Assembly: GCA_903813345.2 (NCBI GenBank) | Contig: CAIIXF020000011.1 | Span: 27,458,166 to 27,522,165 of the forward strand | DNA length: 64,000 nt | Direction of reading: 5' to 3' | Source: Owenia fusiformis | Taxonomy: Eukaryota > Annelida > Polychaeta > Sabellida > Oweniidae | In this document: positions 5,931 to 47,507 of the stretch, piece after piece | Position numbering within the stretch: the stretch's first letter is position 1 | Layout of the letters: each line of letters starts with the position of its first letter | The notes under the pieces: model-generated | The model's database searches: none | What the model was told of the DNA's origin: nothing | The model's input: the letters and a program-made list of their open reading frames with translations, nothing else | Position numbers and translations under genes: made by a program

Positions 5931-6063
5931 GACGAAACACATTGATGATGTTCATATATTGTTATATAAATACGCTTTTATCTAGAAATCAAATATTACT
6001 TATATAATGATGTATTTATTTATACTTCCATTATTATTTACACATGTTTTATATTTCTTTCAG

Positions 6064-8224: not shown

Positions 8225-9310
8225 ATTGTGAGGTTTTAGGCTTTTTGATTGATAACATTTATGTTTGGAAATACTGTTTTACGTCAAAATATAGGAATAC
8301 CAATGGGGACAGATTGTGGTCCTCTCTTGGCAGACCTTTTTCTATTCTCGTATGAATATAAGTTTTTGCAAAAGATGATGAAAGATAAGACAAAATTCCA
8401 CATAGCTAAACTTTTTAATAAAACATATAGGTATATAAATGACCTGTTGAGTTCGGGCAACCCTGGATTTGAAGATTTTGTAAATGAGATATACCCTTCC
8501 GAGTTAAATAAGACCAATGAATCGAACATGAATGCGCCTTATCTTGACCTTCTCATTAACACTGAACAAGACAACAGTATATATTTTAAGTTGTATGATA
8601 AACGAGATGATTTCAACTTTGATATTGTGAATTTTCCCCATTTAGACAGTGATATTCCATTAATCCCAGCATATGGGGTCTATGTATCCCAGCTTATTAG
8701 GTATGGCAGGGCATGCTCAATATAATGTAGGAATTGTTTAAGACATTAGCGCTGAACTCACAATCTTTTCACTTGGCACCTTTTGAGGTGGATCCCGGCT
8801 ATGGCATTAATGGTTGAGAAATAGGGATTGAAACCAGCCATAGTTTTCTCCTGATGACCATTGTGAATTATTGTGTTTCATGGATTATGGCGTCGGCTTT
8901 TGTGAATGGATGTTGACCCTTTGAAACGCCTATGGACTTGGAGACTGGATTTTATCTATCCCACATCATTTGAGACTGAATGCTCTCTCTTGTATGAGTA
9001 CTTGTATCTACAACTATTTTTGATGTTATGAGTATTGGCTATCAATTTCTAATTTTTTCTTCAACATGTATTGTAATGACTGCAGTATTAATGAAATGGC
9101 CCTTGGTGTTCTGGTCTTGGATCGTCACATCGGCTCTTGAATGGTGGGGGGAAGGGGGTATTAGACATTGTTTCTTTTCACGTTACATCATGGTTTTGGG
9201 ATATATGGGGTTTGTTTTTCTTGACTGGTATGCACTTAGAGTTTGCTTTTTCTTCCTAAGTTCCATTACAACTTTTGGTCCTTTCCCTTTGGCACATGTG
9301 CTTAGATATT
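8225..9310 (+). mobile_element. Retroelement fragment inserted in copy A
   Basis: The stretch has no counterpart in copy B, whose homology resumes at about 9312/36930. It carries an open frame at 8249-8725 similar to a reverse transcriptase, followed by about 580 bp with a hydrophobic open frame (9028-9342) that I do not recognise. Confidence 0.65.
8249..8725 (+). pseudogene. Reverse-transcriptase fragment, catalytic box altered
   Basis: A 158-residue open frame. Residues 17-33 read IGIPMGTDCGPLLADLF, the RT block before the catalytic box in a widespread metazoan retroelement group, possibly Penelope-like. Residues 62-65 read YIND where YIDD is expected, so one of the two catalytic aspartates is Asn. 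Further on come YLDLLI, KLYDKRDDFNFDIVNFPHLD and PAYGVYVSQLIRYGRACS, all typical of this group. The fingers and first palm aspartate block upstream, and any endonuclease downstream, are missing. It is a truncated, inactive copy. The exact family is uncertain. Confidence 0.75.
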
Positions 9311-24500: not shown

Positions 24501-27500
24501 TAAGGGCCGTTAACAAAGGGGACCATAATCCCTGGGGGACCATCATTTCTTTCACACCTGTCTGAAATGCTATATTGACCGCCACTTTGACGTTACATAT
24601 TGCTCAGGTCGATATAGTAAAATGAATGCCTTCTAAACTAGCACTAAAAGCCCTAGTACTGGCCCGGCAAGGTGGTAATAATACATATAAAAAAGAAATA
24701 TTAAAATTTAAGCATTTCATTTCAGTTGTTTTCCCTGTATATGCTGATGCTATACCCATATTTGGACTATGCCTATCTGTCAATCACAGCCATTATTGAA
24801 ACTGGCACCACCCCTTTAGTCAAGCTCCTCATAGAGGCAATCATGGAGAACGAAATTGAAATCACACAAGTGTTTGACATTCTACTAACCTATAGTAACA
24901 ATTAAAGGTAAAATGTGTTATATTTAAATTGAAACGATGACAATTGTAAGTATCAACAAGCATTGTATGCAGTATATATGTCAAAATAGTGGGTCGTCAG
25001 AAATCACCTTCAAATGGTTCATCATAGTGCGTATCAAAACTAGCAAATAAATTGTAAAACCAAAAAACCAGCGCTGTTTTGTATTCCCTTTTTGTTTGGT
25101 TGCAAGTTTTTGGGACATCTAGTTATCAAAAATGCTAACATTCTCCAACTTTGAAACCACATCAATCTTGCTTAAAGTTGTAGTTGATACATGATATCAA
25201 CTTTTCCTTAATTTAATGTAGCGTGAAATGTTTTTTAGTTAGTTTTGTTGTTGCTGCTGCTGTTGCCTTCATTCTCGTGCTCTACAACATACTCCGGAGT
25301 TTGGCCTGCTACAGGTACATGTAGTCGTTTTAGTTAGTTTGAAATTTGTTATGTTTCTTATTAACGACGTTATATGTAGGTATGTATGCTAAAAGATGTG
25401 CAAACACGTCTTATGGTCTTTCCAATTTACCCACACCTTCCAAATATCTGCTTTATAAATCAATATACAAAGTAAAGTAAGTCTCCGTAACATATCGACC
25501 TTGTTGTTATTTTAGATCGATTTATTTGAGTGCTTTTATTAGTTTTTAAGTAGTTTAGCAAATTGACACAGAAAACGTCCTCGTTATTATATGACGTCAT
25601 GAGCATAAAGGTTTAAAAGCTGCAACATTTAAATCACATATACATAAATTGATAGTCAAAATCTATTCAAAAAATCTGATTTTCTAGTGCTTACAATTAT
25701 GAGGATTATGTATTTATATATATGCATATTCCATTTGTATTTTGTAGATATGATCAGTTGACATTATACCGTGGAGCCCACCCGAACCTTCCACCAATGA
25801 AGGACCTTGGGCACTCAGGACTTATGGTAATTATAAGATTAACGGCAATGGAGTAAGGCATTTATAAAATGTACAATTGGAATAAATAATTGTATTGACT
25901 AAAATATAGATATATTTATAAAAAAAGAAAGAAAGAATTAATTAAATTAATGAATAAATAAATAAATAAATAAATATAAAGTAAATAAAGAAAATAAATA
26001 AATACATAAATAAGAGATCCATTTTATGTTTACATATCAGATGATTTTTTCTGTTACTAATTACTTTTTACAAATGTTTGCTCTTGCACCTGGGCTGAAT
26101 TTCAAGTGTTTAAAATGAATGATATTTCACTTTTCGCATTTTTCTAAATCTTTGTAATACTTTCAGACGGGGTTCATACGATTTGCTGGATATCAGGTGG
26201 CATATTGCGCATGGAGTGAGTGTTAATTTATTACTAATTACAGTATAATAGTTATCCCCTCTACAGCTATTTCGAAAAAATTGATATAATTGCTCGTCTT
26301 GCTCTGACTTTGGCTATGTCAACTCTCTAGTAGAAGCACATCCTGAAAAACTATAGTCATTTATAGACAGCATCTTACGATGCATTTGGATAAAGCTTTC
26401 ATGTTAAATTACCTTAATCAATTTGGGCACTTAACAATTAAATATAAAACTTTAAAGTATTGGATTTAAGTCCTGTGCTTTGCTGGCCCTGGTCTGATTT
26501 GATTTTGTATTTCACCGTGATCGGCAATTAACACACTGGTATGTTGAATGGTTATCCTACGAACTAGTGTTACGTAACTATGTGATTTCCAGTCGATAAA
26601 TGACCTTAACTACACATTAAAATCGTATCAGTCTGATAATTTTTTAAATAATGAGCAATTTATGAAATGAATCTTTATAAGTAGGAATTATGGATTTTAT
26701 GATACAGTTGCCAAATTGCAATTGCATCCAACCGCATTTTTATTATTTCCAGGTTTTATCATTACACAACTTCTACTGTTCCTGGTGATATTTGTAGTAT
26801 CCTGTGTTTTAATAATTCCCCTTACACTTGGTTACGGTAGATGGTTTCTCAATGTACTCTTAAATGCATGGTACGTAATACTAGATATAACATTTTTATG
26901 ATAATTACTATAGCATCTCCACAGTAGTATATGGCGTCCATTTCGACCTGCAACCGGCACCGGTACTTGTGCACCATGGTGCACCGGAAGTGACGTCATG
27001 GGTCACGTGCACCGGAAGTGACGTCATAGGTCACATGTTATAACTGCACAACAATTTCGACCAATCACATGGCTGTAATATATCAATTTGACCAATTATA
27101 TTTGACACATACTTCATAGGTTGTATAAGCTGTAGAACCATCATGCCACTTTATATCACTGGTCAAAGGTTACTGATAATTGGTGCAAGATCAAGGATTT
27201 CTGATAACTGATAAGATATTCAAACAAACACTGTTAAGGTAACCTGGTGACTATGTGATAAGCTATCTTGTCTACTTCATGGATGTTTCATTGTTATAGG
27301 TCAAAGGTGAATAACAAACTGATAAAACAGTAAAAAAGATAACTGCAGAACCATTTCAACCAAACAGGTTTAAACTTACAGAATTATGTTAACCAATCAG
27401 AGTACAGAATGTTTTAACCAATCAGGTTTCGAGATGCAGAATTATAACAACCAATCAGGGATAGTATGTTTGTATTATCTGATCCAATCGATGTACAGGA

Positions 27501-28672
27501 TATTTTCATCCATTATTTTAACCAATCGGGTTGCAGTATATTTTCATCTAATCAGAAAGCAGCAAATTCAACCAATCAGAGATAAGTTCCACCAGTAAAC
27601 CAGTGCAAACATTCTGGTATTATGCAACACAAATATTTACTGAGAGATTGACATTGCTAAGGTCCGGTCAAAGGTTACTGATAATTGATTAAGAGAGAAG
27701 TCTACTGATAAGATAACCAAACCAACACTGTTAAAATAACTTGGTGTCTAAGTTATTCAAGCTCTTAAGTAATCTGTAGAACAAACCTTTGACATATGAT
27801 ATCACTGGTTAATGATAACTGATAAGAGAAAAGTAGAGAGTGTAAGTGTACATCATTAATATTATTGAGAACAACAACACAATAAATATATTAAAATAAA
27901 CATTTAGAAGGCTGATCTGGGGATCAAACCCAGGACCTTTTGCTCCTAAAACAAGCATCATACCACTAGAACAATCAACCATAGATATGGAGAGAATATT
28001 TTAATATACTTCATGGCAATCATAAAAAGTATAGCATGTTTTGAATCAGATATTATGTTATGGTCAGGAAAACAATAACTGCAGAACTATTTTAAACAAT
28101 CGGGGTACAGTATGTTTTCATCCAGTCAGATATAAGAAAATCACCCAGTAGAAGAATTTTGCAACATTACAAGTTCCGGCTGGTATTGAAGTTTTATAAC
28201 CAACAAGCCTCCTGAGTCATTTTAGAATAATTTTTAAAGTGTCACGTTTGAGCGATTTCAGTCACTGTTGGTCGATTTCTGCTAATTTTTGGAGTTTGAA
28301 TCTTTTGTTGTTCGATGTATGTAAATAATTCCTCTCAGTTGAATTTGCAAACAGAACCTAGGTCATTGCTACATGCTGCTACAAAGGTAGATTAACCATT
28401 TATTTTGGACAGCGACCAAGTGTGAAGCGAAAACTGGCAGCAAACTGGAAGCCCGGCGGGTACTATTTATGTTTACATGAGTTTTCCCTCCAATTGTAAT
28501 CAACCCCTCAAATGTCTAAAAACCATGTAAGTGTACTTTTTTAGAATCTTTTTTTGGAATATTTTCGACCAATCAAAGTGTATATGCAAATGAGCTGCAG
28601 AACAATTTCAATCAATCAGATCAGATTATTGCACTCTTTGACCCCGCCGCCGCCGCCGCCGCCGCCACCGCC

Positions 28673-28724
<52 letters not shown>

Positions 28725-28810
28725 CCATCTTTACTTTTTACTGGGTTTGATTGCAATTTGATAGAAAACTTATTTAAATATGAATATCACCTGCCATTAA
28801 AGGCACAACG

Positions 28811-28857
<47 letters not shown>

Positions 28858-31800
28858 CGGCGGTGGCGGCGGCGGTGGCGGCGGCGGCGGCGGTGGCGGC
28901 GGCGGCGGCGGGGTCAGAGTGCAATAATCTGATCTGATTGATTGAAATTGTTCTGCAGCTCATTTGCATATACACTTTGATTGGTCGAAAATATTCCAAA
29001 AAAAGATTCTAAAAAAGTACACTTACATGGTTTTTAGACATTTGAGGGGTTGATTACAATTGGAGGGAAAACTCATGTAAACATAAATAGTACCCGCCGG
29101 GCTTCCAGTTTGCTGCCAGTTTTCGCTTCACACTTGGTCGCTGTCCAAAATAAATGGTTAATCTACCTTTGTAGCAGCATGTAGCAATGACCTAGGTTCT
29201 GTTTGCAAATTCAACTGAGAGGAATTATTTACATACATCGAACAACAAAAGATTCAAACTCCAAAAATTAGCAGAAATCGACCAACAGTGACTGAAATCG
29301 CTCAAACGTGACACTTTAAAAATTATTCTAAAATGACTCAGGAGGCTTGTTGGTTATAAAACTTCAATACCAGCCGGAACTTGTAATGTTGCAAAAATTC
29401 TTCTACTGGGTGATTTTCTTATATCTGACTGGATGAAAACATACTGTACCCCGATTGTTTAAAATAGTTCTGCAGTTATTGTTTTCCTGACCATAACATA
29501 ATATCTGATTCAAAACATGCTATACTTTTTATGATTGCCATGAAGTATATTAAAATATTCTCTCCATATCTATGGTTGATTGTTCTAGTGGTATGATGCT
29601 TGTTTTAGGAGCAAAAGGTCCTGGGTTTGATCCCCAGATCAGCCTTCTAAATGTTTATTTTAATATATTTATTGTGTTGTTGTTCTCAATAATATTAATG
29701 ATGTACACTTACACTCTCTACTTTTCTCTTATCAGTTATCATTAACCAGTGATATCATATGTCAAAGGTTTGTTCTACAGATTACTTAAGAGCTTGAATA
29801 ACTTAGACACCAAGTTATTTTAACAGTGTTGGTTTGGTTATCTTATCAGTAGACTTCTCTCTTAATCAATTATCAGTAACCTTTGACCGGACCTTAGCAA
29901 TGTCAATCTCTCAGTAAATATTTGTGTTGCATAATACCAGAATGTTTGCACTGGTTTACTGCTGGAACTTATCTCTGATTGGTTGAATTTGCTGCTTTCT
30001 GATTAGATGAAAATATACTGCAACCCGATTGGTTAAAATAATGGATGAAAATATCCTGTACATCGATTGGATCAGATAATACAAACATACTATCCCTGAT
30101 TGGTTGTTATAATTCTGCATCTCGAAACCTGATTGGTTAAAACATTCTGTACTCTGATTGGTTAACATAATTCTGTAAGTTTAAACCTGTTTGGTTGAAA
30201 TGGTTCTGCAGTTATCTTTTTTACTGTTTTATCAGTTTGTTATTCACCTTTGACCTATAACAATGAAATATCCATGAAGTAGACAAGATAGCTTATCACA
30301 TAGTCACCAGGTTACCTTAACAGTGTTTGTTTGAATATCTTATCAGTTATCAGAAACCCTTGATCTTGCACCAATTATCAGTAACCTTTGACCAGTGATA
30401 TAAAGTGGCATGATGGTTCTACAGCTTATACAACCTATGAAGTATGTGTCAAATATAATTGGTCAAATTGATATATTACAGCCATGTGATTGGTCGAAAT
30501 TGTTGTGCAGTTATAACATGTGACCTATGACGTCACTTCCGGTGCACGTGACCCATGACGTCACTTCCGGTGCACCATGGTGCACAAGTACCGGTGCCGG
30601 TTGCAGGTCGAAATGGACGCCATATACTACTCTCCACGTGAGCGCTTGGGGCATTTTATCTATTTTAAGATACATTAATATAGTAGTTAGGCACAAAGGG
30701 CATTTGATTGCTATGTTCGGAGATGAATAAGTAAGCATATTTTTATCATTTGAATTTTCTTATTTACTACATTCGCAACCTAAATGTTATCCTATTTATG
30801 CATATAGGCCTGCAGTGCTAGTTGCCATGGTGCTAATGATTGGACAAATGTTGCTGTCCAGATTCGCATTCCTGCAAGAGAAAGGGGGTGTTCTCGCTGC
30901 TAATAATAGGCATGTATTCCCGATTAAATAAATAGCAATAAACGTAGCCCTCTGCAACCATGTAGTAACGAAAGTATCCTAGTATAACCGCTTTGAACGT
31001 ATTCATTATATAAACTTATACTGTTTAACTGTTTTAGTTATGAATGTATCCCTAACCCACCTATCACACCAAACTAGTTCTTACCCGTTCTTGCCAGTCC
31101 TACGAAAACGTCGTAAAACGGGCTCAATCTGGCTGTGGTCGGGAAATATGTCTGAAATAATTAGCTTCTTCGTTCTTAAACAGTCTTCAATACGTCCATC
31201 TCGTTCGCAGTTCGTTCAGGTCGCACCACGTCGGTGTGCAACGTCGTAGAACGCGTCTCTTAGTCTAGAAGGTCAACATGACCTGATAACAAAACGGTAT
31301 GGTCGCCATCGAATTTTGAATCGATTCAAAATTCTAAAATCACATTCCCGTCTGAGAACGTTCATAAAGTTCGTAAATAGACCTTAGAAAGTTGCAGCTA
31401 CGTTCAATCCGTTCGCTCCCAGTTTAAAACCAGTTTTGAAGAACGCAGTGGCAACTTGTTTGGTGTGATAGCTATATTTTTGCTAACTCGTTCATAAGCA
31501 GTGTTAAATACGTTCTTAATTAGTTTAAACCCGTTTGCAATTAGTTCTACCTCGTTCTCAACACGTCCTCAGACAGTTCAACTCGTTGTTAAAACGTCCC
31601 TAGTAGGATTGAAGTGCGATGGTTCCGTTCGTAGTACGTCCAGCTCGTCGTTAGTACGTTGTCACTCGTTCTAATTGTAGAACGTGACGACCACGAGAAA
31701 ATTTTGAGCATTGTCTAAGTTCTAGAGGACCCACCCGTTCGAGTACGTTCGATGAAGTTTGTAAATAGATCCCAAACGGTTCTTAGTAGGTCCAGTCCGT

Positions 31801-34800
31801 TCGTATACAGTTGAAGCCCGTTTTCGAGAACGCAGTGAGAACTAGTTTGGTGTGATAGTAGGGTTAATAACCTCTTAGTAATGAATGTATTCATGTATAC
31901 CCACTTCGTTAGCAATGAGCTTATCCCTGTATAGCCGATTAGTGATGAATGTATACGTGTATTACCACTAACCCCCCTATCACACCAAACTAGTTCTTAC
32001 CCGTTTCTTGCCAGTCCTACGAAAACGTCGTAAAACGGGCTCAATTTGGCTGTGGTCGGGAAATATGTCTAAGATAATTAGCTACTTCGTTCATAAACAG
32101 TCTTCAATATGTCCATCTCATTCGCAGTTCCTTCAGGTCGCACCACGTCGGTGTGCACGCGTCCCTTAGTCTAGACGGTCATCATGACCTGATTACAGAA
32201 CGGTATGGTCGCCATCGAATTTTGAATCATTTCAAAATTCTTAAATCCCCGTCCTGTCTGAGAACGTTCATGAAGTTCGAAAATAGTCCTTCGAAAGTTG
32301 CCACTACGTTCATCCCGTTCGCACACAGTTTAAAACCAGTTTTGAAGAACGCAGTGGCAACTTGTTTGTGTGATAGCTATATTTTTGCTAACTCGTTCAT
32401 AAGCAGTCTTTAATACGTTCTTAATTCGTTTAAACCCGTTTACAATTAGTTCTACCTCGTTCTCAATACGTCCTCAGACAGTTCAACTCGTTGTAAAAAC
32501 GTCCCTAGTAGAATTGAAGTACGACGGTTCCGTTGGTAGTACGTTCAGCTCGTCGTTAGTACGTTGTCACTCGTTCTAATTGTAGATATGACGTGCACGG
32601 ACCTGGGGACAATTCGGGAAATACGGGCTAATCTCAGCTTTAATCGTTAATATCTGCCTTATTTAAAAAGCTAACTATATGCATTATATATCATTTTGAA
32701 GTATTTTTTATTCGCATTTCACTGAAATTATTTTTCCTTGAAAAGTGTGATGGGATCTACCATATTTTTTAAGTTAAATGTACTCCGACATCGTCAAATA
32801 CGCTGTAAGGCGTAACATTTCACGCTTACACGGTTCGTTGAAATCAGGATAACTTTTGAAATACTGATCAGAATTTTACTAAAATTTCATATTTTATTCA
32901 TTGAAACATGTGCTTTTATGACGTCACAATTGCCTAGCGGCTACAGTTCAAATCGTCTTATATGAACGCTTTTAAGATTTTCAAAATTGTGTAAGGTTTT
33001 GAAGGCGAGGGAGACAAGCAATAAGTTCACCTTTATTTAACCTTCTAATTTAGGTCTGATTTCAAAAAAAATTTAACTGCACAATATTGTCATGGCGAAA
33101 TTTACAAAACAATAACCGATTTCTTTATTTTTCAAATAATAAGAGAATAAGAGTTGCTTTTAGAGACTTGAAAAAATGTAACGCATCGATTTTTTACCAC
33201 AAATACCATACATATCAATTTTTATAACGCCCCGAGTGGATTTCCTGACCGTTTTTCAAAAATCAAAAACATTTTAGAAATATTGTCCTCGAGATCTTCT
33301 TGCTCTGTGAATTTCACCAGGATTGAATAAGAATAAAGCATCTTATTTTTAGGTAGACTAAACTTGACAAAATGTAACGCTTGTCGTTTTTGACGTTATA
33401 ATGCTGATTGCGCCCTATACTGGCCATTGTATTGTTTTGGTATTTTGACGCCATAATGTTACTCTAATTGTCCCCAGTTTCGTGCGACGTGTAAGAACGT
33501 GACGACCACGAGAGCATTTTGAGCATGTTCTAAGTTCTAGAGGACCTACCCGTTCAAGTACCATCGATGAAGTTTGTAAATAGACCCCAAACGGTTCTTA
33601 GAAGGTCCAGTCCGTTCGTTCACAGTTGAAGCCCGTTTTCCAGAACGTAGTGAGAACTAGTTTGGTGTGATAGTAGGGTAACGAATGAGTTTGAAATGAA
33701 AATATCCATACGTATGAATTCATACGTGCATAACCACTTGTAAATGAACATATCTCCTTAAAAGTGCTTATTAATGAAACACATTGATGATGTTCATATA
33801 ATGTTATATAAATTTTATCTAAATATAATATTACTTATAATGTAATGTAATGTATGTATTTATACTTTTATCATTATTTACGCATGTTTTTCTTTCAGAC
33901 GCTGGTTGTTCATCTTTACATATTACATGTTTTTCTACAACGTCTTCTTGGGATTGTTTTCCACTCTGAAGCGGATATTGTTCTCAGTATTGTTCGGGAC
34001 CCTCTTCTTGAGCAGAATGGACATAGCATCATTGTCTCGCTTCTTTGAAAGAAAGGATCCAGGTATGTTACCACTTCGTTTTTGTTCAATTTTTTAAGGT
34101 TCGGCTTTAAATGAGTTGCCTTTTTAAAGACATTTAACTTTACGAAGAACTAGGTAGATCCTGACGTCACTAGCCTCCCTAATTTACGACTTTTTAGCTA
34201 GCGTATTGCACGGTCTATTTTTATTAATGATTTTATTCCACTTGTTGAAAACAATATAAACAATTACATATAAAAGGATACCAATCGCCATTACAGGTTG
34301 CTTTGATTAAATTAAACATAGTTTTCATGTTGCTTTAGATATCACAAACAGAAAGTAAGTAAAATATTGTAAATAAAATAAATAAATATTGAAAGTATTT
34401 GGGTCCAGGAGGTTGGAAGACGCTATATGGGTCAAAGTTTTAAATTCTAGTTGGGTGAAGATAACATTTTCCAACAAAGTCAGTTACTATGTTAAGGAGG
34501 ATATTTTGAGAATCTCGACAGAGGGTGTTTTCAAAAATAAGATATTCTTATTGGTCATTTTGGTTTGTACATGTATTTGTATCATAAAGTAGGTTGTTTT
34601 GTCTCAGTGCAGCGATCATATAAATTCTTCCGTTTATATTGCGTGGGCAACACAGGAGTAAGTGTTTTGTACTTTCAGGGGATCGACATGGACACTTATT
34701 ATCATTTACTCCTGTAAAATTGTGAGAGAAAAAGTGATCTTTTAACATAAAATCGACCCGTAGTCTATTGATGATTTTCTCCTTATTCCTTATAAGTTTG

Positions 34801-35813
34801 AGCTTGGTTGTTGGGATAAAATTCATATGAAGAAATATTAATGAACGAACAGCATTTTTGAAATTAGATATGGTTTGTAAATCTCGCACGGTCTATTTCG
34901 CCAAATAAATGAGTAATTTAAACATATGTAATAATGAACTGAGACTAAATAAGAAGTTATGTTGTACTTTCGTACGAGTGATACAAATTTAAAATATCTT
35001 TGATAATTAAACCTTTTATTGGGTTGCTGAACAAGGCAAGTTAGGCACAGTGTCGACTAACAATGATCGAAACTGTGAGTTTGATACACATAGCCTCCCT
35101 GCTTTTATTCATTTAATTTTTCTGATATTTTTAGGTTTCTCGTCCTACCTTGGGCTCCTGTACGTTGAACATTGTCACAACCACCCCATTTTGGTGACAT
35201 TCTGTAACATCCTCATTGACGATCACAACCGGAAGTACCATAAAGGGAGATACGCCTCGAAAGCCATTAGAGGTATAAGCCAATTTGTGACATATTTAAA
35301 GCGCTAGATACACTAAACAGTTTTTAACACAATGCCTTAAACAAGGGTGTACGAGAATTATCTTACCTTTCTTGATATACAGACTAAGCCTGCGTTAACT
35401 TTTTTAATTTTCTTCCAGACGAGGACACTATTGATGTAAAGATAAAATCCCAACATGGTAAATACCGGGATTTCAAAGACCAGAAGTCATGGCGATCTTA
35501 CAAACGCGCTCAAATGCGCTGGCAATTAGTACTCACACTGATGCGTGCGCCGATTCTTCAATACAATCGGAAACAAGCGATTATTGCCGAAGCAGAAGCC
35601 GAGAGAAAGCGCGAGATTTCAGAACAAAATGAATTAAACTTACAAAATGGAAGACAACATGGGCTCAATGATATGAAATACCAGCCAACGACAATTGCCA
35701 ACCACCACACTATCTTGAATGTAGGGGACTTGGACAACGTTGATTCTAACAAAATGAACGTGTATTTATCTAACCCACATGACACTCAAAAGGAACAAAC
35801 TACATTCCTCTAA
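18498..35813 (+). CDS. STRA6: STRA6-like receptor/transporter (retinol uptake family), complete, 17 exons
   Basis: Seventeen exons join in frame: 18498-18571, 18946-19003, 19860-19945, 20378-20517, 20840-21015, 22226-22296, 23669-23736, 24002-24063, 24726-24894, 25239-25314, 25748-25826, 26167-26215, 26753-26870, 30808-30909, 33899-34062, 35135-35272, 35419-35813. They total 2025 nt and 674 residues, close to human STRA6 (667). Family features seen include NAWPAVLVAMVLMIG, FLQEKGGVLAANNRRW (vertebrate: W...FLE..DG...TNRR), FFYNVFLGLF, the DPG motif with SSYLGLLYVEHCHNHPILVT, and a basic C-terminal helix WQLVLTLMRAPILQYNRKQA. In vertebrates STRA6 is a plasma-membrane receptor for retinol-binding protein that moves retinol into cells and binds calmodulin. 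The ligand in this animal is unknown. N-glycosylation sites lie near N18 and N22. All introns are GT-AG except intron 14 (GC-AG). Start chosen as the first ATG after the leader that opens the frame; no earlier in-frame ATG in the exon. Confidence 0.92.
18946..19003 (+). CDS. STRA6: STRA6-like exon 2
   Basis: Residues 25-44, start of the first membrane helix (AYFLFNLIPA). Acceptor TTTCAG, donor GTAAGA. Confidence 0.85.
19116..19653 (+). mobile_element. Mariner-like remnant in STRA6-like intron 2
   Basis: The ends form an inverted repeat: CATGGTGATCCAAAAA and AATCTTAATAACTCA on the left match the complement of the right end ...TTTTTGGCTCACCCTG, with TA on each side. A 79-residue open frame (19229-19468) has NFNFWDYFKD and GELKQDIRMEIRA, resembling the C-terminal part of mariner transposases (D-F-x-L-W-G-Y-L-K-D then LK..I..EI). 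The D,D catalytic region is missing, so it is dead. Confidence 0.75.
19860..19945 (+). CDS. STRA6: STRA6-like exon 3
   Basis: Residues 45-72: end of the first helix, then the basic loop LQRRQALCRG and GRPGLLR, as in vertebrate STRA6. Acceptor TTTCAG, donor GTACAC. Confidence 0.88.
20226..20285 (+). repeat. (TATG)n microsatellite
   Basis: Interrupted TATG/TATGTA repeats in intron 3. Confidence 0.9.
20378..20517 (+). CDS. STRA6: STRA6-like exon 4
   Basis: Residues 73-119: PIDFIQGRSRRFSYAAAFGL parallels the DF..G...R.SY.FAFG block of vertebrate STRA6. Acceptor TTCCAG, donor GTAAGT. Confidence 0.9.
20840..21015 (+). CDS. STRA6: STRA6-like exon 5
   Basis: Residues 120-178, two membrane helices, ending in an acidic DVDDD loop. 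Acceptor TTTCAG, donor GTAAGT. Confidence 0.9.
21082..21340 (+). mobile_element. TTAA-flanked MITE, second family, copy 1
   Basis: Ends AGAGAGAATCAGATCTA and TAGATCTGATTCTGCCT, flanked by TTAA at 21078-21081 and 21341-21344, in intron 5. A longer relative lies at 51869-52239. Confidence 0.85.
22226..22296 (+). CDS. STRA6: STRA6-like exon 6
   Basis: Residues 179-201: KYVRRLFDPIPEEK, a cytoplasmic loop. Acceptor TTCCAG, donor GTAAGA. Confidence 0.85.
22370..23468. mobile_element. Mariner-type element with about 165-bp inverted repeats (intron 6)
   Basis: CAGGGTGGTCCAAAAAATAT at the left and its complement at the right, within inverted repeats that run to ACTAGTCA (22535) and from ACTAGTTTAATG (23308). 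Flanked by TA at 22368-22369 and 23469-23470. The middle has no transposase that I can recognise. Confidence 0.88.
23669..23736 (+). CDS. STRA6: STRA6-like exon 7
   Basis: Residues 202-224: PPPGMKQKIIGTIKSGMY. Acceptor TTTTAG, donor GTAAGT. Confidence 0.8.
24002..24063 (+). CDS. STRA6: STRA6-like exon 8
   Basis: Residues 225-245: YRYSTRVICTTVVTII, matching the F.PSRM.ST.V start of a vertebrate helix. Acceptor TTCTAG, donor GTAAGC. An alternative AG six bases on would shift the frame. Confidence 0.82.
24726..24894 (+). CDS. STRA6: STRA6-like exon 9
   Basis: Residues 246-301: helix plus the amphipathic segment IMENEIEITQVFDILLTY. The donor GTAACA at 24895 is chosen because reading on meets TAA at 24904, and only this end keeps phase with exon 10. 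Confidence 0.82.
25239..25314 (+). CDS. STRA6: STRA6-like exon 10
   Basis: Residues 302-326: helix SFVVAAAVAFILVLYNILRS. Acceptor TTTTAG, donor GTACAT. Confidence 0.85.
25748..25826 (+). CDS. STRA6: STRA6-like exon 11
   Basis: Residues 327-353: LTLYRGAHPNLPPM parallels the LHRGA block of vertebrate STRA6. Acceptor TTGTAG, donor GTAATT. Confidence 0.9.
25920..26012. repeat. A-rich (AATA)n microsatellite
   Basis: AATAAATAAATAAATAAA and related A-rich repeats in intron 11. Confidence 0.9.
26167..26215 (+). CDS. STRA6: STRA6-like exon 12
   Basis: Residues 354-369: TGFIRFAGYQVAYCAW. Acceptor TTTCAG, donor GTGAGT. Confidence 0.85.
26753..26870 (+). CDS. STRA6: STRA6-like exon 13
   Basis: Residues 370-408: helix with LLLFLVIFVVSCVLIIPLTL, then WFLNVLLNA and a Trp codon completed by exon 14. 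Acceptor TTCCAG, donor GTACGT. Confidence 0.9.
26980..27036 (+). promoter_or_regulatory. ETS/CRE-like doublet at the left palindrome end
   Basis: GCACCGGAAGTGACGTCAT occurs twice in a row with a GGTCACGTG E-box word between. CCGGAAGT is an ETS motif and TGACGTCA a CRE motif; their direct fusion is known from vertebrate promoters. The mirror copy is at 30518-30574. Function is inferred only. Confidence 0.5.
27060..27600 (+). repeat. CCAATCAG-rich degenerate minisatellite (left arm)
   Basis: AACCAATCAG or close variants recur every 30-45 bp from 27060 to 27590, usually followed by a CAGAAT or CAGTAT word. The mirror copy is at 29955-30490. Confidence 0.75.
27910..27980 (-). pseudogene. tRNA-like sequence (left arm), tRNA-Pro-like
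   Basis: 71 nt, read on the minus strand. A perfect 7-bp acceptor stem (GGTTGAT with ATCAGCC, one GU) and a T arm CTGGG-TTTGATC-CCCAG. The order and spacing match tRNA-Pro. The anticodon loop reads TTTAGGA, so positions 34-36 are TAG rather than a Pro anticodon, and the outer anticodon-stem pair is a C-A mismatch. Probably a pseudo-tRNA carried by the element. Confidence 0.55.
28643..28726 (+). repeat. (CCG)n tract, left of the palindrome tip
   Basis: CCG repeats with CCA interruptions, 84 bp, facing the mirror CGG tract at 28813-28912. Confidence 0.97.
28813..28912 (+). repeat. (CGG)n tract, right of the palindrome tip
   Basis: CGG repeats with TGG interruptions. At about 100 bp it is longer than the left tract, so the two have changed length independently. 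Confidence 0.97.
29574..29644 (+). pseudogene. tRNA-like sequence (right arm), tRNA-Pro-like
   Basis: Exact inverted copy of 27910-27980. Contains A-box-like TGTTCTAGTGG and B-box-like GGGTTTGATCC. Confidence 0.55.
30808..30909 (+). CDS. STRA6: STRA6-like exon 14 (GC donor)
   Basis: Residues 409-442, helix and the FLQEKGGVLAANNR motif. Acceptor ATATAG. The donor is GCATGT: ending at AATAATAG keeps phase and gives NNRRW across the junction, as in vertebrate TNRR. The next GT (30914) would shift the frame and meet a stop in exon 15. Confidence 0.9.
31056..31863. mobile_element. Harbinger-like MITE, copy 1 (intron 14)
   Basis: Ends CCCACCTATCACACCAAACT and AGTTTGGTGTGATAGTAGGG, with TAA and TTA at the flanks. 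Interior is rich in CGTTC/GTTCG words with no coding frame. A satellite unit follows at 31867. Confidence 0.85.
31972..33678. mobile_element. Harbinger-like MITE, copy 2, with a nested insertion
   Basis: Same termini as copy 1, flanked by TAA on both sides (31969-31971 and 33679-33681). A 907-bp element is inserted at 32587-33493. Confidence 0.88.
32587..33493 (+). mobile_element. 907-bp DNA element with 3-bp target duplication, copy 1
   Basis: Begins TATGACGTGCACGGACC then TGGGGACAATT; ends AATTGTCCCCAG then GTGCGACGTGTA. AGA is duplicated on each side, and the other Harbinger-like copies show the uninterrupted site TGTAGAACGTGACG. The second copy is at 58846-59753. No coding frame. Confidence 0.88.
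33690..33780 (+). repeat. 90-bp satellite remnant in intron 14
   Basis: CGTGCATAACCACTTG...AATGAACATATCTCC matches 1178-1210. Another unit lies at 31867-31968. Confidence 0.8.
33899..34062 (+). CDS. STRA6: STRA6-like exon 15
   Basis: Residues 443-497: FFYNVFLGLFSTLKRILFSV and the DPG end. Acceptor TTTCAG, donor GTATGT. Confidence 0.93.
34221..34885 (-). mobile_element. 5'-truncated LINE fragment with 13-bp target duplication
   Basis: GCACGGTCTATTT lies at 34208-34220 and 34886-34898, and copy A has it once (CACGGTCTATTTCGCC at 6373). The minus strand (34548-34889) encodes a LINE C-terminal block with INRLRVDFMLKDHFFSHN, CPCRSPESTKHLLLCCPR. Only the 3' part is present. It sits in intron 15, antisense to the gene. 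Confidence 0.9.
35135..35272 (+). CDS. STRA6: STRA6-like exon 16
   Basis: Residues 498-543: SSYLGLLYVEHCHNHPILVT, then a basic segment. Acceptor TTTTAG, donor GTATAA. Confidence 0.93.
35419..35813 (+). CDS. STRA6: STRA6-like exon 17
   Basis: Residues 544-674, cytoplasmic tail. WQLVLTLMRAPILQYNRK corresponds to the vertebrate W.LAYTLL.NP.LQ..RK helix; a charged coiled-coil-like stretch AIIAEAEAERKREI follows. Stop TAA at 35811-35813. Confidence 0.93.
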
Positions 35814-35916
35814 ACTTACCTCAAACGATGTATTTTGTATTTTTATATGATGTTTTAATTGGTATTTAGTTAATATAATGCTCATTATATATGATAGGAT
35901 GCAACCACTCGCTTGT

Positions 35917-36085
35917 TATGCATCGTATATTTTAAATACGAGGATAAGATACAGGGTAATATGGACATAAAGACTTACGTAGTATGTTTTCATAGAAATG
36001 TTATGCATCGTATATTTTAAATACGAGGATAAGATACAAGGTAATATGGACATAAAGACTTACGTAGTATGTTTTCATAGAAGTT
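35917..36085 (+). repeat. About 84-bp tandem duplication, 3' of the STRA6-like gene
   Basis: TTATGCATCGTATATTTTAA through CATAGAA occurs twice in copy B. Copy A has it once near 7986-8068. Confidence 0.85.
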
Positions 36086-36196
36086 TTAAAATTGTACTAA
36101 TTTGACGTACTATTTTAGTACGCGGCATATCTTCCTTTGTTGATATCTCTACGAAGGAAGAAGCGTCTAAACAGTACAGAGAAGAGTAAAGGATGA

Positions 36197-36908
36197 GTAT
36201 CGATATGGCGAATTTTTTGAACACACGTTTCTCCTAAACCAGTCATCAAAAAATTCTGAAAATTTTACACATTGTCAATTTAATAGTCATCTTTTGAATG
36301 GTAACAATATAATTTGAAATAGATATATATACTTTTCTCTATATTGTTTTAGAAATCGCATCGGACACTTCTTTTATTGTTCTTGGTATCATATGTTCGG
36401 AATGAAATGAAACATCTATCCGAACCTCATTGGAACAAAATGTTGTAATTAAGAGATCATCAATATTGTAATAATACAAAGGAAAGTTTGGTTGATTTAA
36501 AAAGTATCTTGTTAATGAAATTAAAGGTTATCTTAGTTTTTATCTATTTAGGGGGGTTTTTGTTTTAATTTTTTAAATACTTTTTGTTAAATCAACCAAA
36601 ATTTCCTTTGTACAACTATAATATTGGGAAGTCTAAGAAAATGTTTTATATGCTATTTTGTTCAAACAAGCTTCGGAAAGATGTTTTATTTCATTCTCAA
36701 GAAATGGTAAAAAGGGACAAAAAACAATTGCACTATAAAACAAAAAATGTTAACAAAAACAGTTATATAAAATATGTATAAATTATTTTCGCGTTAAATT
36801 GTTGTCAATCAGTCAACATTACATAAAGGACTTTGTTTTTTTACAGAATGTTTTCAATAATTTGGTTAAGAGAAAAATATTATTGAATTCAGTTCTCCAT
36901 ATCGATAC
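36197..36908. mobile_element. Putative foldback insertion in copy B
   Basis: GTATCGATATGG at 36197-36208 and its exact complement at 36897-36908, with a second inner inverted repeat (36476-36510 and 36583-36617, GGTTGATTTAA/TTAAATCAACC). The stretch is absent from copy A at the matching place. No target duplication was identified. Confidence 0.5.
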
Positions 36909-37453
36909 CAATCCTTTGATAAATATATCACAATAAAACAAATACTGACAATGTAAATAAACAAATAATAATTGTCATTTTAACCATTCTTATAGCGTCT
37001 GTATAACATTGGTGTCCACATGATATATCCACATCTGTATAATATTTAAGTCTGCGTTTTTCAGCATTATTGACTTTACAACATTGTATTTATCTATTTC
37101 GATATATTTAAACAGTAAACATGCGTTAAATGTCTAGCTGTCCTTGACTGAAATAAATATATATTAAAAAATTAAGTCTTTATAATAATGTTTAATAATG
37201 TCTTTATAACAATCGATGGTAATCTTTCTTTTTTCAATGTCTTATTTATTAGATACACAGTCGTAACCATATGAACATAACCGTTTATGTATCAATAAAC
37301 TATCGTCTTCTAAGCAATAAATCAACCAATCAATTCAAGTCGCATCGGCAACAAGGATGTACTTATTTCTCTCTTTACTAGATACACTCACGCCAGGATA
37401 CTCGTTGTCTGTGCTTCATTAACACTCAGTAATTATTCATGTACAATGAAAAG

Positions 37454-38800
37454 TTATATTTTAGTAAATTTTTGACGATTCTCTGTTGGATCTTCCCTGC
37501 CCTCTATTCCATCAAGAGAGCCAGAAACTGTGTTAACATCAATTTTCGAGCCCTGTATTCTGCTCACCTTTGTTTTGAAGTTTGTTTCGCTTTGACTCAC
37601 TAACGAACTTTGTGTGTTCGTTTGTCTTCTGTATGCTGTTTTCTTCTTACAAAATAACTCTCGCAGCGAATCACGAAATTTCTTTCCGCTCAGGCAGTAC
37701 ATGACGAAGTTCAAAGCGCTATTGAGATACATTAACAGGTTCACAATGGCTACAGTTAGTTTCTCGCTTGCCTTTTCAGCTGTCGTTGGGGCACGTGTAA
37801 TATCTGGTTGTATTACAACGTCTAGTAATACGACTGGGGAGGTAAAGCAGAGGAACAAAAAGGATATCATCACGAGCATAATTGTCATGGAGCGTGTTGT
37901 GTCGTCCTGTTTTGAACTTGTCACGTTCATTTGGTTCTTCCGGCGAGCGGCTGCTTTGACCAACTGGGTGACAATTAAAATGTTACAGACGAACAAAGTG
38001 ATGAAGGGGATGAATGAAGCGACGGACGCATCAATCCAAGGCCAAAAGGTTCGATGAAATTCTTCAAATCCCTCCAAGTAGGCGCAATTGAACTGAATTT
38101 CTTCAATCAGTCGGATGAAATTTCGCTGTCCAACTGTAAAGAACCAATGAAAGTTCACCCCAACGATGAAGAATGTAATAAGGCATATAACAGTCATGGT
38201 TTTCCTCTTGGTACAGATCGACTTTGCTCTCAGGGGCAAGTAGACGAGGATGACTCTATCAATTGTAACACAGACCAACATCCAGGCAGATAGGTCAATA
38301 AACATATAGGTGAAGAACACATGGATTTTGCATGCCCATTCATGTGCGGCCCTGATATCATAAGTGAACATGTTACGAGACCACTGTCGTCCTAGACCAA
38401 CGAGGAGAACCCCAGTGTCGAATATAGCCAAAGCAGCAAGATAAATTGACGAGGCAGCTTTATTCATACTTGTAAATTTCATCACAAGAAATGACAGAAT
38501 ATTGCCGATCAATCCAAGTATAATCACAACTAGTGTCATATATTTCCATAGAGCGACGCCGATATGGTATTCTATAAAGTCCTCAATAGATGGCGCTTTC
38601 ACGGTAGTTACAAAGGCTGTTGAATTTAGATATTGTTGAACTGAAGTGTTTCCGGCAATTTCTAGAGTAGTCGAATCCATCGCGATGCTTGAAATCGCAT
38701 AACCGGCGTTTGATGTGGCTTCAGAAGCATTTGGAAATTGAGTCGTTCCATTATTCTCCATTTTAGGTATTGAGCTCTCGGACCCACAACCTCCGTACAA
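37454..38800 (-). CDS. Class A (rhodopsin-like) GPCR, probably a neuropeptide receptor
   Basis: 448 residues in one exon. The N-terminus (1-85) has four N-glycosylation sequons (N17, N24, N51, N59). TM1 is at about 88-108 with G-N100. TM2 has the LAALAIFD block with D128. C157 precedes TM3, which ends in D181-R182-V183. C239 in loop 2 is the likely disulphide partner. TM5 is at about 256-280, TM6 at about 303-330 with CFTSP in place of CWxP, and TM7 with N364-F-V-M-Y368 in place of NPxxY. A cysteine at 384 could be palmitoylated. The short basic tail follows an amphipathic helix 8 (SGKKFRDSLRELFC). The pattern fits peptide-receptor relatives such as FMRFamide- or somatostatin-like groups; ligand unknown. 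It converges with the STRA6-like gene. Met14 is an alternative start. Confidence 0.93.
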   Translation of the reverse strand: MYGGCGSESSIPKMENNGTTQFPNASEATSNAGYAISSIAMDSTTLEIAGNTSVQQYLNSTAFVTTVKAPSIEDFIEYHIGVALWKYMTLVVIILGLIGNILSFLVMKFTSMNKAASSIYLAALAIFDTGVLLVGLGRQWSRNMFTYDIRAAHEWACKIHVFFTYMFIDLSAWMLVCVTIDRVILVYLPLRAKSICTKRKTMTVICLITFFIVGVNFHWFFTVGQRNFIRLIEEIQFNCAYLEGFEEFHRTFWPWIDASVASFIPFITLFVCNILIVTQLVKAAARRKNQMNVTSSKQDDTTRSMTIMLVMISFLFLCFTSPVVLLDVVIQPDITRAPTTAEKASEKLTVAIVNLLMYLNSALNFVMYCLSGKKFRDSLRELFCKKKTAYRRQTNTQSSLVSQSETNFKTKVSRIQGSKIDVNTVSGSLDGIEGREDPTENRQKFTKI

Positions 38801-39204
38801 ACTCTGGTAGGATACTAATAATGTAATGATAATATCTCATTTCCTGTCAAAGAAATACAGTGCCGCATTCATATCAGTCAATTAAACGAAGTGGCCGAAG
38901 ACAATGCATACCAATTGAGACATCAGGAGATGAGAAAACAGCAATCAACATTAAGTGATGAGTTCAAAACAAGCCATTAGATAATTACAGTGGCGTGGAG
39001 ACCAATTGAATACCTTTAATAAGACATGATAATCGTTTAGCAAGATTAAATCATATTTCTATCAATTCAAATTAATTTATTAATCCAATGAGAAAGCAAT
39101 TCTATTCTTCTCCATAGTATTATCTGAATTTATCTCGCTTTCCGAGCTAATTGGCCCAGGTGTCGACTGTCGATTTATAGCATCGATGAGAAGTTATAAA
39201 ATTA
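38801..39204. other. GPCR upstream region, nothing recognised
   Basis: AT-rich, with no recognised repeat or gene. The receptor's promoter should lie here or further right. Confidence 0.4.
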
Positions 39205-39714
39205 CCCTACTATCACATTAAACTAGTTTTCACTACGTTCTCGAAAAGTGGCTTAAACTATGTACGAACGTACTGGACGTACTAGGAACCGTCTACGAAC
39301 AATTTACAAACTTATTTATTTACAAATTTTCACACTTAAGTTGTGTTGCCACGGCAACCACTTAACCAATCATGATCAAACTTGCAATTGCAACTAATTA
39401 CACATAAATACATAATCCATAGAAATAAAAAGTTGATTGGAAGTATATAACATAATTTATTTATGCTTTTCATAGTACCCCTTCATAAAAATAGCTAGGG
39501 GGTATAAATGGCAATAATTCCAAGAGGCTGAAAAATTAGACCCTGTTTTTTTCAAAATCAATGAGAAATGATATACTTCACACGAATGAGATGGACGTAT
39601 TGAAGCTATAATTATTTTAGACATATTTCCCGAGCACAGCCAGACTTAGCCCGATTTATAGCTTTTGTAGGACTGGAAAGAACGGATGAGAACTAGTTTG
39701 GTGTGATACGGGGG
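39205..39714. mobile_element. Harbinger-like MITE, copy 3
   Basis: Ends CCCTACTATCACATTAAACT and AGTTTGGTGTGATACGGGGG, flanked by TTA on both sides (39202-39204 and 39715-39717). Its middle (39320-39590) is replaced by a repeat found inverted at 58500-58790. Confidence 0.82.
39320..39590. repeat. Dispersed repeat, inverted partner at 58500-58790
   Basis: Shared words: AACCAATCATGATCAAACTT here and its complement-like AAGTTTGATCATGATTGGTC there; also GTACCCCTTCATAAAA and its complement. Confidence 0.8.
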
Positions 39715-39717
39715 TTA

Positions 39718-41642
39718 CCCTGGCCTACTATACTAAAACAATTAAATTAAGTCTCACTTTTGATCTTCATAGTATTTCCAATGGATTAATAAGTACCTTA
39801 TATTTTATTTGACACCAAAAACAACTCAAACAGACCACATCAGAGTTGACACTAGATCATGAAAAAATATTTTTGATGTATCGGTTTATAGATGTCAAAA
39901 TTTTAGCAATCCCATACAGTCGAAATGTTGAGGCATGCGCAGACCTCTATTTAGTGATATTTTCATTTCAAATATGGCGGCCAATCCGATGTCTGACGAC
40001 CCTTACAAAGAATCTAGGCAGTTTGCATTTTTACCTCCTGTGAAATAACAAGTGGAAGTTAGTAGTTTTATTATCATTCTGCATCGTACTTCTATGTGAT
40101 GTGGTGTTGAAATGTCAGCAGAAATGCATATCCATACGATAATCGAGTGAATCAGATAACAGATTTTTCGAAAACCCGTCTCGTGCTAAGCGTGTAAAAA
40201 CTTGTATTAACATGCTCAAAAGTGCCAATGTGCACATCAATGTCAAGCTAAATCAATGTTGTGTCTAAAACAGGTAGCCGATCTACTCAAAACAGCTTGT
40301 CATTCACGTATACACGCTTAGCAAACACGGCGAAATGACCTGAATCTTGGAATTTCGTTCAAGAGCTAGTAATGTTTGCTCCGGTCTTCGTCATAATTGT
40401 TCAACAGACTTCACGCATGCGCAGGAGAAAAACCATCAACCAATAAGGTTTATAAATTAATTTTGCGCATGCGCCTTACAACGGTAAAGAAATTGGTATT
40501 TATAAACGAACCAGTTTGAGATAACCCGATATCAGTCGGAGAAATCTGACGATCTACGAAACTCACTTCAAAAAATCAAATGCGGACTGACGGCGTATTC
40601 TACTATGTTTGGATCTAAGATTTTCAGTATTGATAAAGTCTTTTATGATCTTTCGAATGAGGTAAGTCTCTAGTTCGAAAGACAATCGTATCAACTTGAA
40701 CAAAAGTTGAGTTTTGACGAAAAATTTTAACATGCGCAGAAGTCCCATTTTCGTTGTACCATATTGACTGCATAGAAAGATGGCATTGTTGTTTGCATTA
40801 ATTGTCCATTCATTTTTGATATGATTTTCAACCATACGCCATTTTTTATTTCAAGATTTATTTAAAAACATACACTTTGTGAAAAGTGGTAATTCACTTC
40901 TTTTGATCTCTGAACTTCAAATGCTGTTTTCTATGCGAGTGATTTCTTTTCACTTTAGTATTGACCCAAATTAAAGTTTTTATCGTATTTGATTGACTGT
41001 GTGAGTGACATGTCTCAAATATTATTTTGTCCTTTTTCCTTCAGAAATAAGCGCATTGCCTGTTTAATATCCCAATAGGTAACAATCTATAGTTCATTTT
41101 GTCTTAGTGGATCAAGTAACGATCGATTAAAAATGATAAACTTTAATCGATTCAAAATGTTAATTACATGTACATGCGAGGGTTGTTACAAGACGCTAGG
41201 CAAAAAAGATTGGTAAATATGTGTTGCTTTGAATATAACTGCTTGTAAGCTGAGTATGAGGTCACATGATTTAGAGAAATTCATTTAAACTCCGCCTCCA
41301 TCTCCTTTTAAATCCTATTTATGTGAGCCAGATGACTTGTATAACTGTTCTTGGCCGGTAATGACAATGCAGGTGCAAAGTCTTCTAATCTAGACCACCG
41401 CTATTGATTTAATGTAGAAGAATCAATATTCGTTGATTTTTAGGTTATATGCATGTAATCGATCAGTCTTTACTTTTTTAATGTACACCTGTAGCAGAGT
41501 CTTAATGTAGCAGATAGCACGCGTGATCATTAATTAATTTTCTAACCGATACGTGTTTGTTACAATTAACGGTGCCAGTAGCTTCATATTTAATTCAAAG
41601 GTGTCTGCAGTTGCAGCTGACAATAGCATAAGCGTCCGTGCA
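39718..41642. other. Upstream region of the first MFS gene
   Basis: No gene recognised. A 90-residue minus-strand frame at 40563-40835 has no known relatives. Two GCGCATGCGC-type (NRF1-like) words lie at 40413-40424 and 40465-40474. The stretch 41360-41480 is related to 50540-50670 upstream of the second MFS gene. Confidence 0.45.
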
Positions 41643-46921: not shown

Positions 46922-47507
46922 ACAAAACAATAAACCCAGGTCGTCATTGTCCTATTAGAAGATTATACCCAAATATATAAACCTAAACGTTATACAGGGC
47001 CCTGACAGGGTCTGGTGTTATAGATGGGAACCCAAATTTGACGTGGATAAATATGTCGACGTTATCTCCGCTGAACTAAACGCCCTTCAAATTCTTTTGT
47101 CATTTATTGCCTAAATTACCCGGAACTTCAATTCAAGTATTATGAATCTATGGTGAGTCCTGATTCATGATTCAGAAAACTAATCCAAACATGGAAATGT
47201 AATTGGCATTAATAGTCTGACATATAATATTGTTATAATTTATTTACTGTGCAAAACAATTACAAAAAAAGTAAAAAACAAATAAAACAATAATAGAGCG
47301 TTCAATGAGTCCAATGATTATTCATTTGAATTTTCATCTCCATAATCTGAAATGGGAAATATTTTAAAGGTTGTAGAGATAAAAATGATTTCATATTTGA
47401 GACATTCAATTTTTCTAGATTTTCTTCATTAGTAAACATCAAATAGGCAGACACTATGAACCAGGAAAACTGTTCTCCTATTATGTTTCCAAATTTCAAG
47501 AACAATA
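46922..47507. other. Intergenic, nothing recognised
   Basis: AT-rich DNA without gene or repeat signature. Confidence 0.45.

Follow-up and report, generated by a model that had tools for sequence, protein, structure and literature searches.

A 3.7-kb palindrome in the annelid Owenia fusiformis is very probably a gene-less member of the Polinton/Maverick elements

A near-perfect palindrome in Owenia fusiformis (contig CAIIXF020000011.1), 3709 bp long with arms that are 99.7% identical, occupies positions 26923-30631 of the 64-kb stretch of DNA analyzed here (the window; Table 1), corresponding to 27485088-27488796 of the contig. Sequence comparison indicates that it is very probably a gene-less, non-autonomous member of the Polinton/Maverick elements that is copied and inserted in trans and derives from a two-gene satellite. 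The reading as a gene-less Polinton derivative follows from the combination of Polinton ends, a 6-bp target duplication, and a Polinton terminal repeat within the arms. An earlier note on this DNA had recognized the 3.7-kb palindrome and the flanking CTCCAC duplication, both of which are borne out, and had proposed insertion of a mobile foldback, for which the duplication and related copies elsewhere in the genome now provide support.

Outside the CCG/GGC tracts (1714 nt per arm), the arms differ by three substitutions (27197, 27285, and 27592) and in length by an extra T at 28157 and by 2 nt near 28636; an alignment that takes in the tracts has 1783 matches over 1788 positions and 3 gaps. A chance origin is excluded by two gapless inverted repeats, 1238 and 481 nt long, both printed as 100% complementary even though the three arm substitutions fall within the longer one. 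Most one-strand CCAATC boxes fall within the arm segment related to the Polinton terminal repeat. Placement of the palindrome in an intron of a STRA6-like gene, as the earlier note had it, finds no support in the exons located: STRA6-like (PF14752) exons of the downstream gene (33891-34064 and 35134-35301) were found only 3′ of the palindrome, and an exon search upstream of it returned none apart from a second copy of the gene in the window (6053-6232 and 6612-6776). The effects through double-stranded RNA, ADAR editing, and small RNAs that had also been envisaged are unnecessary to account for the structure.

Table 1. Features of the palindrome and its flanks (positions in the window)
Feature	Positions	Strand	Remark
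Target site duplication CTCCAC, left copy	26917-26922	.	Flanks palindrome
Target site duplication CTCCAC, right copy	30632-30637	.	Flanks palindrome
Left arm, including CCG tract	26923-28727	+	
Right arm, including GGC tract	28811-30631	-	
Left terminus AGTAGTATA, Polinton (AGT)2 end motif	26923-26931	+	Motif as in PMC8097293
Right terminus TATACTACT, Polinton (ACT)2 end motif	30623-30631	-	
Two 28-bp repeats with GGAAGTGACGTCA, motif common to Polinton ends	26979-27034	+	
Mirror of both 28-bp repeats	30520-30575	-	
Arm positions 118-590, 94% identical to terminal repeat of L009/L010 (15-kb Polinton)	27040-27512	+	
Mirror of Polinton terminal-repeat segment	30042-30514	-	
tRNA-like sequence, left arm	27909-27980	-	RF00005, 47.5 bits
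tRNA-like sequence, right arm	29574-29645	+	
Arm segment recurring in arms of two-gene elements	28082-28297	+	
Arm segment adjoining CCG tract, recurring in two-gene elements	28557-28640	+	
(CCG)n tract	28644-28727	+	
Loop, ~83-87 bp, between (CCG)n and (GGC)n tracts	28728-28810	.	
(GGC)n tract	28811-28909	+	

A genome search for further copies, as suggested in the earlier note, retrieved ten other paired elements carrying all (7) or part (3) of the loop, so that 11 of the 31 paired elements in the genome, the palindrome included, share it wholly or in part. Over an 87-bp stretch covering the loop (28727-28813), eight other full-length copies show 97-98% identity. The end motif has 75 copies in the genome, compared with 0 for a backwards control. 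Perfect 6-bp duplications were found at 18 of 19 related sites tested, the exception being L022, which has no matching 6-bp duplication. This count leaves out L014, L023, and the second of the C5 tandem copies, as well as a pair spanning 26923-40604 of the window whose right end is a chance match. Long inverted repeats are a familiar product of chimeras; however, the arms of this one differ at several sites, and several other contigs hold copies that have the loop conserved but are flanked by different 6-bp duplications, in agreement with the earlier view that no chimeric read produced it. Given the ten paired loop-sharing elements and the 18 perfect duplications, an assembly or library artefact in the form of an inverted chimera is ruled out for practical purposes, its probability being close to nil.

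Arm-to-arm identity is 99.6-100% in the eight loop-bearing palindromes measured. Matches between the palindrome arm and long arms of other elements reach 93.8-98.4%, below the arm-to-arm values. The same arm-to-arm identity would be expected of an ancient, inert insertion in which gene conversion within the hairpin, not recent copying, keeps the arms alike, but the perfect target duplications and the level of between-element identity point to fairly recent spread and make this explanation unlikely. One element, L021, shows 0 mismatches in 2864 bp arm-to-arm, which is compatible with conversion and recent copying alike. For elements beyond L024, arm identity was measured by BLAST, giving only 97.5% for L026 and 99.3% for L027.

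The earlier note knew of no described element with these contents; Polintons/Mavericks in fact share its ends, its target duplication, and its terminal repeat. An (AGT)2...(ACT)2 end motif and a 6-bp duplication are reported for Mavericks in PMC8097293, and the palindrome matches this pattern with AGTAGT...ACTACT ends and its 6-bp duplication. Elements of 13-15 kb in the same genome carry genes for an integrase of retroviral type and for an A32-like ATPase, and their terminal repeat recurs in the palindrome arms: beyond the L009/L010 match (Table 1), arm positions 231-590 and 287-590 are 87% and 91% identical to the terminal repeats of L011/L012. An alignment of 19 element ends includes 4 from Polintons, and the exact 26-nt end of the palindrome also occurs on contig C138, whose integrase and capsid-like protein are 97% and 99% identical to those of L009. 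The latter element encodes an integrase with rve and chromodomain above the Pfam cut-off and a Pox_A32-like ATPase 0.1 bit below it, and L011/L012 encode relatives of all 11 L009/L010 proteins searched. Among the candidate helpers L009/L010 and L011/L012, the only protease match is to Peptidase_C5 (E 0.019, under the Pfam cut-off), and Pfam named no protein-primed polymerase among the scanned pieces of Polinton-type elements. The 447-aa capsid-like protein, labeled as such from length and position alone, matches 0 Pfam families and 0 PHROGs.

The window gave 0 matches to the 11 L009/L010 proteins (tblastn, E 1e-3), and the palindrome can therefore be only a non-autonomous derivative. Compared with Polintons/Mavericks (polintoviruses, adintoviruses), it shares the (AGT)2//(ACT)2 ends, the 6-bp duplication, and terminal-repeat sequence, whereas it measures 3.7 kb rather than ~13-17 kb, does not carry the autonomous gene set (pPolB, integrase, capsid, protease, and ATPase), and consists of inverted repeat everywhere except the loop. 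Polinton enzymes acting in trans probably move it, judging from these shared features.

Foldback elements of Drosophila create target duplications of 9 bp and Galileo elements of 7 bp. The palindrome has their shape, with very long, internally repetitive inverted repeats around a short loop and little or no unique middle, and long internally repetitive inverted repeats are described for Galileo in PMC3573991. Its duplication is nevertheless 6 bp and its ends are AGTAGT, and ends, duplication length, and arm sequence, including the terminal repeat, match those of gene-bearing Polintons in the same genome, so an origin as a separate Foldback- or Galileo-type transposon that has its own kind of transposase and no relation to Polintons is highly improbable.

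Each arm also contains a tRNA-like sequence and pieces of dispersed repeats, absent from the Polintons and two-gene elements examined. The former exceeds the Rfam gathering score of 29 (Table 1), but the idea that the arms hold functional tRNA genes was rejected: ARAGORN, run with the bacterial code, detects none, the fold does not outperform shuffled sequences (z -1.0), and other copies have one or two changes, one of which breaks a T-stem pair (by eye). The sequence is called tRNA-like and assigned no role.

The ends of the palindrome recur on 17 two-gene elements, a class measuring 4-8 kb, with one gene for a zinc-finger ATPase and one for a small basic protein; two further families resemble them. 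No capsid, polymerase, or integrase gene was found in the two-gene elements, and neither an integrase nor a capsid-like gene was detected near the zinc-finger-type ATPase genes; second pieces of listed genes (22 among 111 ATPase rows, 20 among 133 integrase rows) were dropped from this neighborhood count. Changes in both the ATPase and the basic-protein genes bear the mark of purifying selection. A scan of viral_contigs with the basic-protein alignment recovered no relative, and a PDB search with the 516-aa ATPase returned nothing below E 0.06. A tree of 14 rows, bearing on a common origin of the three satellite ATPases, has an unresolved base and would fit one old lineage as well as several origins. 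Palindrome segments common to the two-gene elements sit in both arms of those elements too. In the sister palindrome L030, the basic gene is present in both arms and single in the parent, indicating that L030 arose by inverted duplication. Together, these observations suggest that the two-gene elements and palindromes are Polinton satellites and their palindromic derivatives.

For the palindrome, the ancestor would be a two-gene satellite with ATPase and basic protein. Loss of the interior could have brought its two 1.8-kb terminal repeats together, opposed to each other across the CCG tracts; alternatively, fold-back (snapback) copying may have occurred near these tracts. Acting in trans, the polymerase and integrase of Polintons would then copy the palindrome from its AGTAGT ends and insert it, every new copy starting with matching arms that drift afterwards.

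Several known systems offer partial parallels. Snapback defective genomes of linear viruses (adenovirus, parvovirus) are inverted duplications of one end; L030 likewise duplicates one end of a linear genome in inverted orientation, its arms carrying single-copy sequence of the parent, whereas the palindromes are integrated, multi-copy, and flanked by target duplications. MITEs are short, under about 1 kb, and, like the palindrome, are gene-less and retain nothing of an autonomous partner but its cis-acting ends; at 3709 bp the palindrome exceeds their size, is fully palindromic, and has a virus-like element as partner. Virophages and phage satellites (PICI, P4) are small and helper-dependent and carry a packaging-type gene. 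The two-gene elements are similarly small, probably rely on a larger virus-like helper, and keep a packaging-type gene under selection, but they reside in an animal host and no particle is known for them. The available descriptions of gene-losing Polintons and Tlr elements give neither a palindrome nor reduction to an ATPase and one small protein.

More tentatively, with the balance leaning slightly against it, these elements may form a guild of helper-dependent satellites that steer packaging with their own ATPase and shed palindromic snapbacks, the present palindrome included. At least three families with Polinton-type ends and 6-bp duplications would have retained only a zinc-finger/packaging-type ATPase and a small basic protein, the latter related to one encoded directly before the Polinton capsid-like gene. 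A helper Polinton would supply polymerase, integrase, and capsid, as the missing genes and shared ends imply; the satellites' ATPase would direct packaging to satellite DNA; and palindromic derivatives would arise repeatedly and still spread.

PMC8097293 describes Mavericks/Polintons as suspected viruses of which no particles have been observed. A packaging-type ATPase and a basic protein, retained under purifying selection in small elements that have little else, are hard to explain unless packaging occurs, which makes the question testable in an animal. The palindromes show that a linear virus-like element is able to spread almost entirely as inverted repeat, and one route to this shape is seen in the sister family; annotators would otherwise class such elements as unknown foldback repeats. 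If the satellites do form such a guild, they would represent an animal equivalent of phage satellites and would argue indirectly that Polintons form particles.

The earlier note described a palindrome bordered by a CTCCAC duplication, and the palindrome was recovered exactly where it had been placed, with CTCCAC on its left and right and a loop of about 85 bp in place of the 86 bp given (see the table). Its centre is ordered as arm, (CCG)n, loop, (GGC)n, arm. Each arm spans 1714 nt without the CCG/GGC tracts, and the arms differ as little as claimed: by three substitutions, a single additional T, and one stretch that is 2 nt longer in one arm than in the other, with 1783 of 1788 positions matching across the entire alignable arm. 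Each arm carries eight CCAATC boxes on one strand and none on the other, compared with 0.47 expected per arm by chance (at most 3 in 2000 shuffles), although the boxes are not independent of one another because the arm is internally repetitive. The arm motifs may be CCAAT, ETS, and CRE-type sites.

Features of the window and of related elements in the same genome
Feature	Location	Size or copies	6-bp duplication	Remarks
Palindrome	window 26923-30631	3709 bp	CTCCAC	lies upstream of the second STRA6-like copy, its end 3.3 kb from the first exon detected there
Loop	window 28727-28813			core related to a short repeat dispersed elsewhere in the genome
Arm segment	window 28334-28506			also related to such a repeat
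tRNA-like sequence	each palindrome arm	one per arm
28-bp repeats containing GGAAGTGACGTCA	each palindrome arm	two per arm
STRA6-like (PF14752) gene	window 6053-6776; 33891-35301	two tandem copies		~28 kb separation
90-bp tandem array	window 443-1131	7.7 copies		93% matches; translated pieces similar to 31875-31968
145-bp tandem repeat	window 47507-48052	3.8 copies		adjoins the His-Asp run
Run coding for repeated His-Asp pairs	window 48061-48121
Fragments without stops	window 8249-8725; 61395-61778			reverse-transcriptase-related in appearance, by eye
L015 and L016, loop-sharing palindromes	C5:23701973-23710971	two in tandem		5450 bp apart; equal match scores
L029, two-gene element		3933 bp	TACATT	terminal repeats 257 bp
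L030, sister palindrome	C1:21997982-22003895	5914 bp	ATTGAC
L031 continued into L043	1292-8502		CACTTG

Facing matches to the arm lie 13-15 kb apart in two pairs, L009/L010 and L011/L012, both probable gene-bearing Polintons. Besides a zinc-finger protein, L009/L010 encodes an integrase (Pfam rve, E 1.2e-9; chromodomain, E 8.5e-8) and an ATPase resembling Pox_A32 (E 8e-5), whose 22.7 bits fall just short of the 22.8-bit cut-off; no polymerase was identified among the element's proteins with Pfam. Its 447-aa and 149-aa ORFs follow the Polinton gene order for capsid protein and protease and are candidates for these two; the capsid-like ORF matches no Pfam family, and the 149-aa ORF matches only Peptidase_C5, below the cut-off (E 0.019). 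Each of the 11 L009/L010 proteins used as queries has a relative encoded in L011/L012 (88-98% identity by piece). The terminal repeats of the two elements align over 940 and 612 bp, respectively, window arm positions within 118-590 are common to both, and the ends of both align to the palindrome ends. Contig C138 holds the window's own end variant together with an integrase 97% and a capsid-like gene 99% identical to those of L009. For intact vertebrate Mavericks, PMC8097293 gives (AGT)2//(ACT)2 as the commonest end motif, with 6-bp duplications, and ties the end repeats to jumping-back during protein-primed replication. Since the palindrome shares Polinton-type ends, a 6-bp duplication, and terminal-repeat sequence with L009-L012, and its end variant with C138, it is very probably a gene-less Polinton derivative. 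The earlier note knew of no described element with this combination of contents; in these three features the palindrome matches Polintons. The titles and abstracts listed in the searches, a scope outside which most subscription journals and Repbase-type databases fall, describe no palindromic or two-gene Polinton derivative. Non-autonomous Polintons/Mavericks or their MITEs were absent under such names from the literature searched, and a term search within PMC11071308 gave no match.

The genome search that the earlier note proposed did reveal further copies. Across 498 Mb, with all counts being lower bounds, the left arm gave at least 307 matches, many in facing pairs, and the loop at least eight other full-length copies (97-98% identity), its core also being a short dispersed repeat at no fewer than about 28 further places. 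Twenty matching stretches were taken for reading. A perfect 6-bp duplication flanks 13 of the 14 elements with readable paired ends, the window's included (the exception is L022), and 18 of 19 once L011/L012, L009/L010 (judged by eye from its end sequences), L029, L030, and L031/L043 are added. The end motif AGTAGTATA-N9-TTTCGACC occurs at least 75 times genome-wide versus 0 for its backwards reading; pairing yields at least 31 elements, of which 28 measure 3.3-7.8 kb, and leaves 13 ends without a partner. Eleven of the 31 bear the window's loop, whole or partial, 17 have ATPase matches (with a basic-protein match in 17/17), two have basic-protein sequence only, and one has neither. Palindromic shape was measured in eight of the loop-bearing elements. 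L019, L020, and L021 are longer palindromes (arms of 2.5-2.9 kb) with extra internally repetitive arrays in each arm. The L015/L016 tandem looks as if a larger segment had been duplicated after insertion.

Window-type ends and CCG/GGC tracts (on one side only in L022) also enclose the two-gene elements L022, L024, L025, and L028, whose genes specify a basic protein (131-146 aa) and a zinc-finger ATPase (~478 aa). L022 and L028 have an interrupted ATPase gene, and further copies contain stops or are partial. No Pfam match of the 478-aa ATPase reaches its cut-off (Adeno_IVa2 comes closest, with E 2.5e-4 to 3.4e-4; C2H2 fingers also match); the related 516-aa protein of L029 exceeds the cut-off for Pox_A32 (E 1.4e-9). 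Over 87 residues, the basic protein is 78% identical to the protein encoded directly before the L009 capsid-like gene. Between L024 and L025, dS and dN are 0.198 and 0.035 for the ATPase (~38 of 89 changes nonsynonymous; binomial P 2.4e-14) and 0.220 and 0.038 for the basic protein (~12 of 27; P 7e-5); dN/dS is 0.175-0.458 over six ATPase pairs and 0.141-0.344 over 15 basic-protein pairs, every pair compared. This pattern of codon changes shows selection on both genes in the source lineage and says nothing on the function of each copy.

Gene neighbourhoods were counted for 89 of 111 ATPase rows and 113 of 133 integrase rows, leaving aside rows that only add a second piece to a gene already listed. 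The ATPase has an integrase within 15 kb in 0/21 rows (19 genes) of the 478-aa type, 0/9 of a 519-aa type (36-37% identical, leaving out three further rows at 37% whose frames are shorter and which have integrases), and 40/59 remaining rows; for a third type (15 rows at 52-55% identity and one at 48% whose frame is 567 aa) the count is 0/16. Capsid-like genes within 20 kb number 0/21, 0/9, and 0/16 for the three types and 23/43 for the others; because a single query served for integrase genes and another for capsid-like genes, and scoring covered 108 of the 355 integrase candidates, divergent genes could be missed. All rows of the three types (21/21, 9/9, and 16/16, the last taken from reported distances) have a match to the basic protein no more than 4 kb away. 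One member each of the other ATPase types was read: L029 has two ORFs of at least 90 aa (basic, 124 aa; ATPase, 516 aa), and L031/L043, up to position 7501, encodes a 124-aa basic protein, with a 115-aa ORF antisense to its gene, and a 561-aa ATPase.

L030 bears on how the palindromic shape arose. Both of its arms match the left part of L029, from the element end to about position 1935, and each holds an identical intact copy of the basic gene that is single in L029, which excludes interior loss alone as its origin. A half-element copied back on itself, or head-to-head recombination of two elements, can explain this shape. The match list contains at least six further facing basic-gene pairs of this kind, on C2, C6, C7, C9, C10, and C12. 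In the L027 loop, all that is left of the basic gene is its last 43 codons, and the L026 loop is different again, so palindromes arose more than once. For the window palindrome, interior loss and inverted copying or recombination are both possible routes. The tRNA-like sequence is present in both arms of the window palindrome, L013, L014, L015, and L017-L020, whereas a look for it in L009-L012 and L021-L028 found none, so later additions were copied from one arm to the other.

The mechanism we propose builds on the observed ends, duplications, shared terminal repeats, copies, and selection on the relatives' two genes. A helper polymerase would begin replication at the AGTAGT ends, a helper integrase would perform insertion with a 6-bp stagger, and the arms would become identical during copying and diverge afterwards. 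Packaging of the putative satellites is disfavoured by size, since Mavericks are reported to vary by about 10% around 17 kb (PMC8097293) and most of these elements are below 8 kb; the satellites' own ATPase may bias packaging toward satellite DNA.
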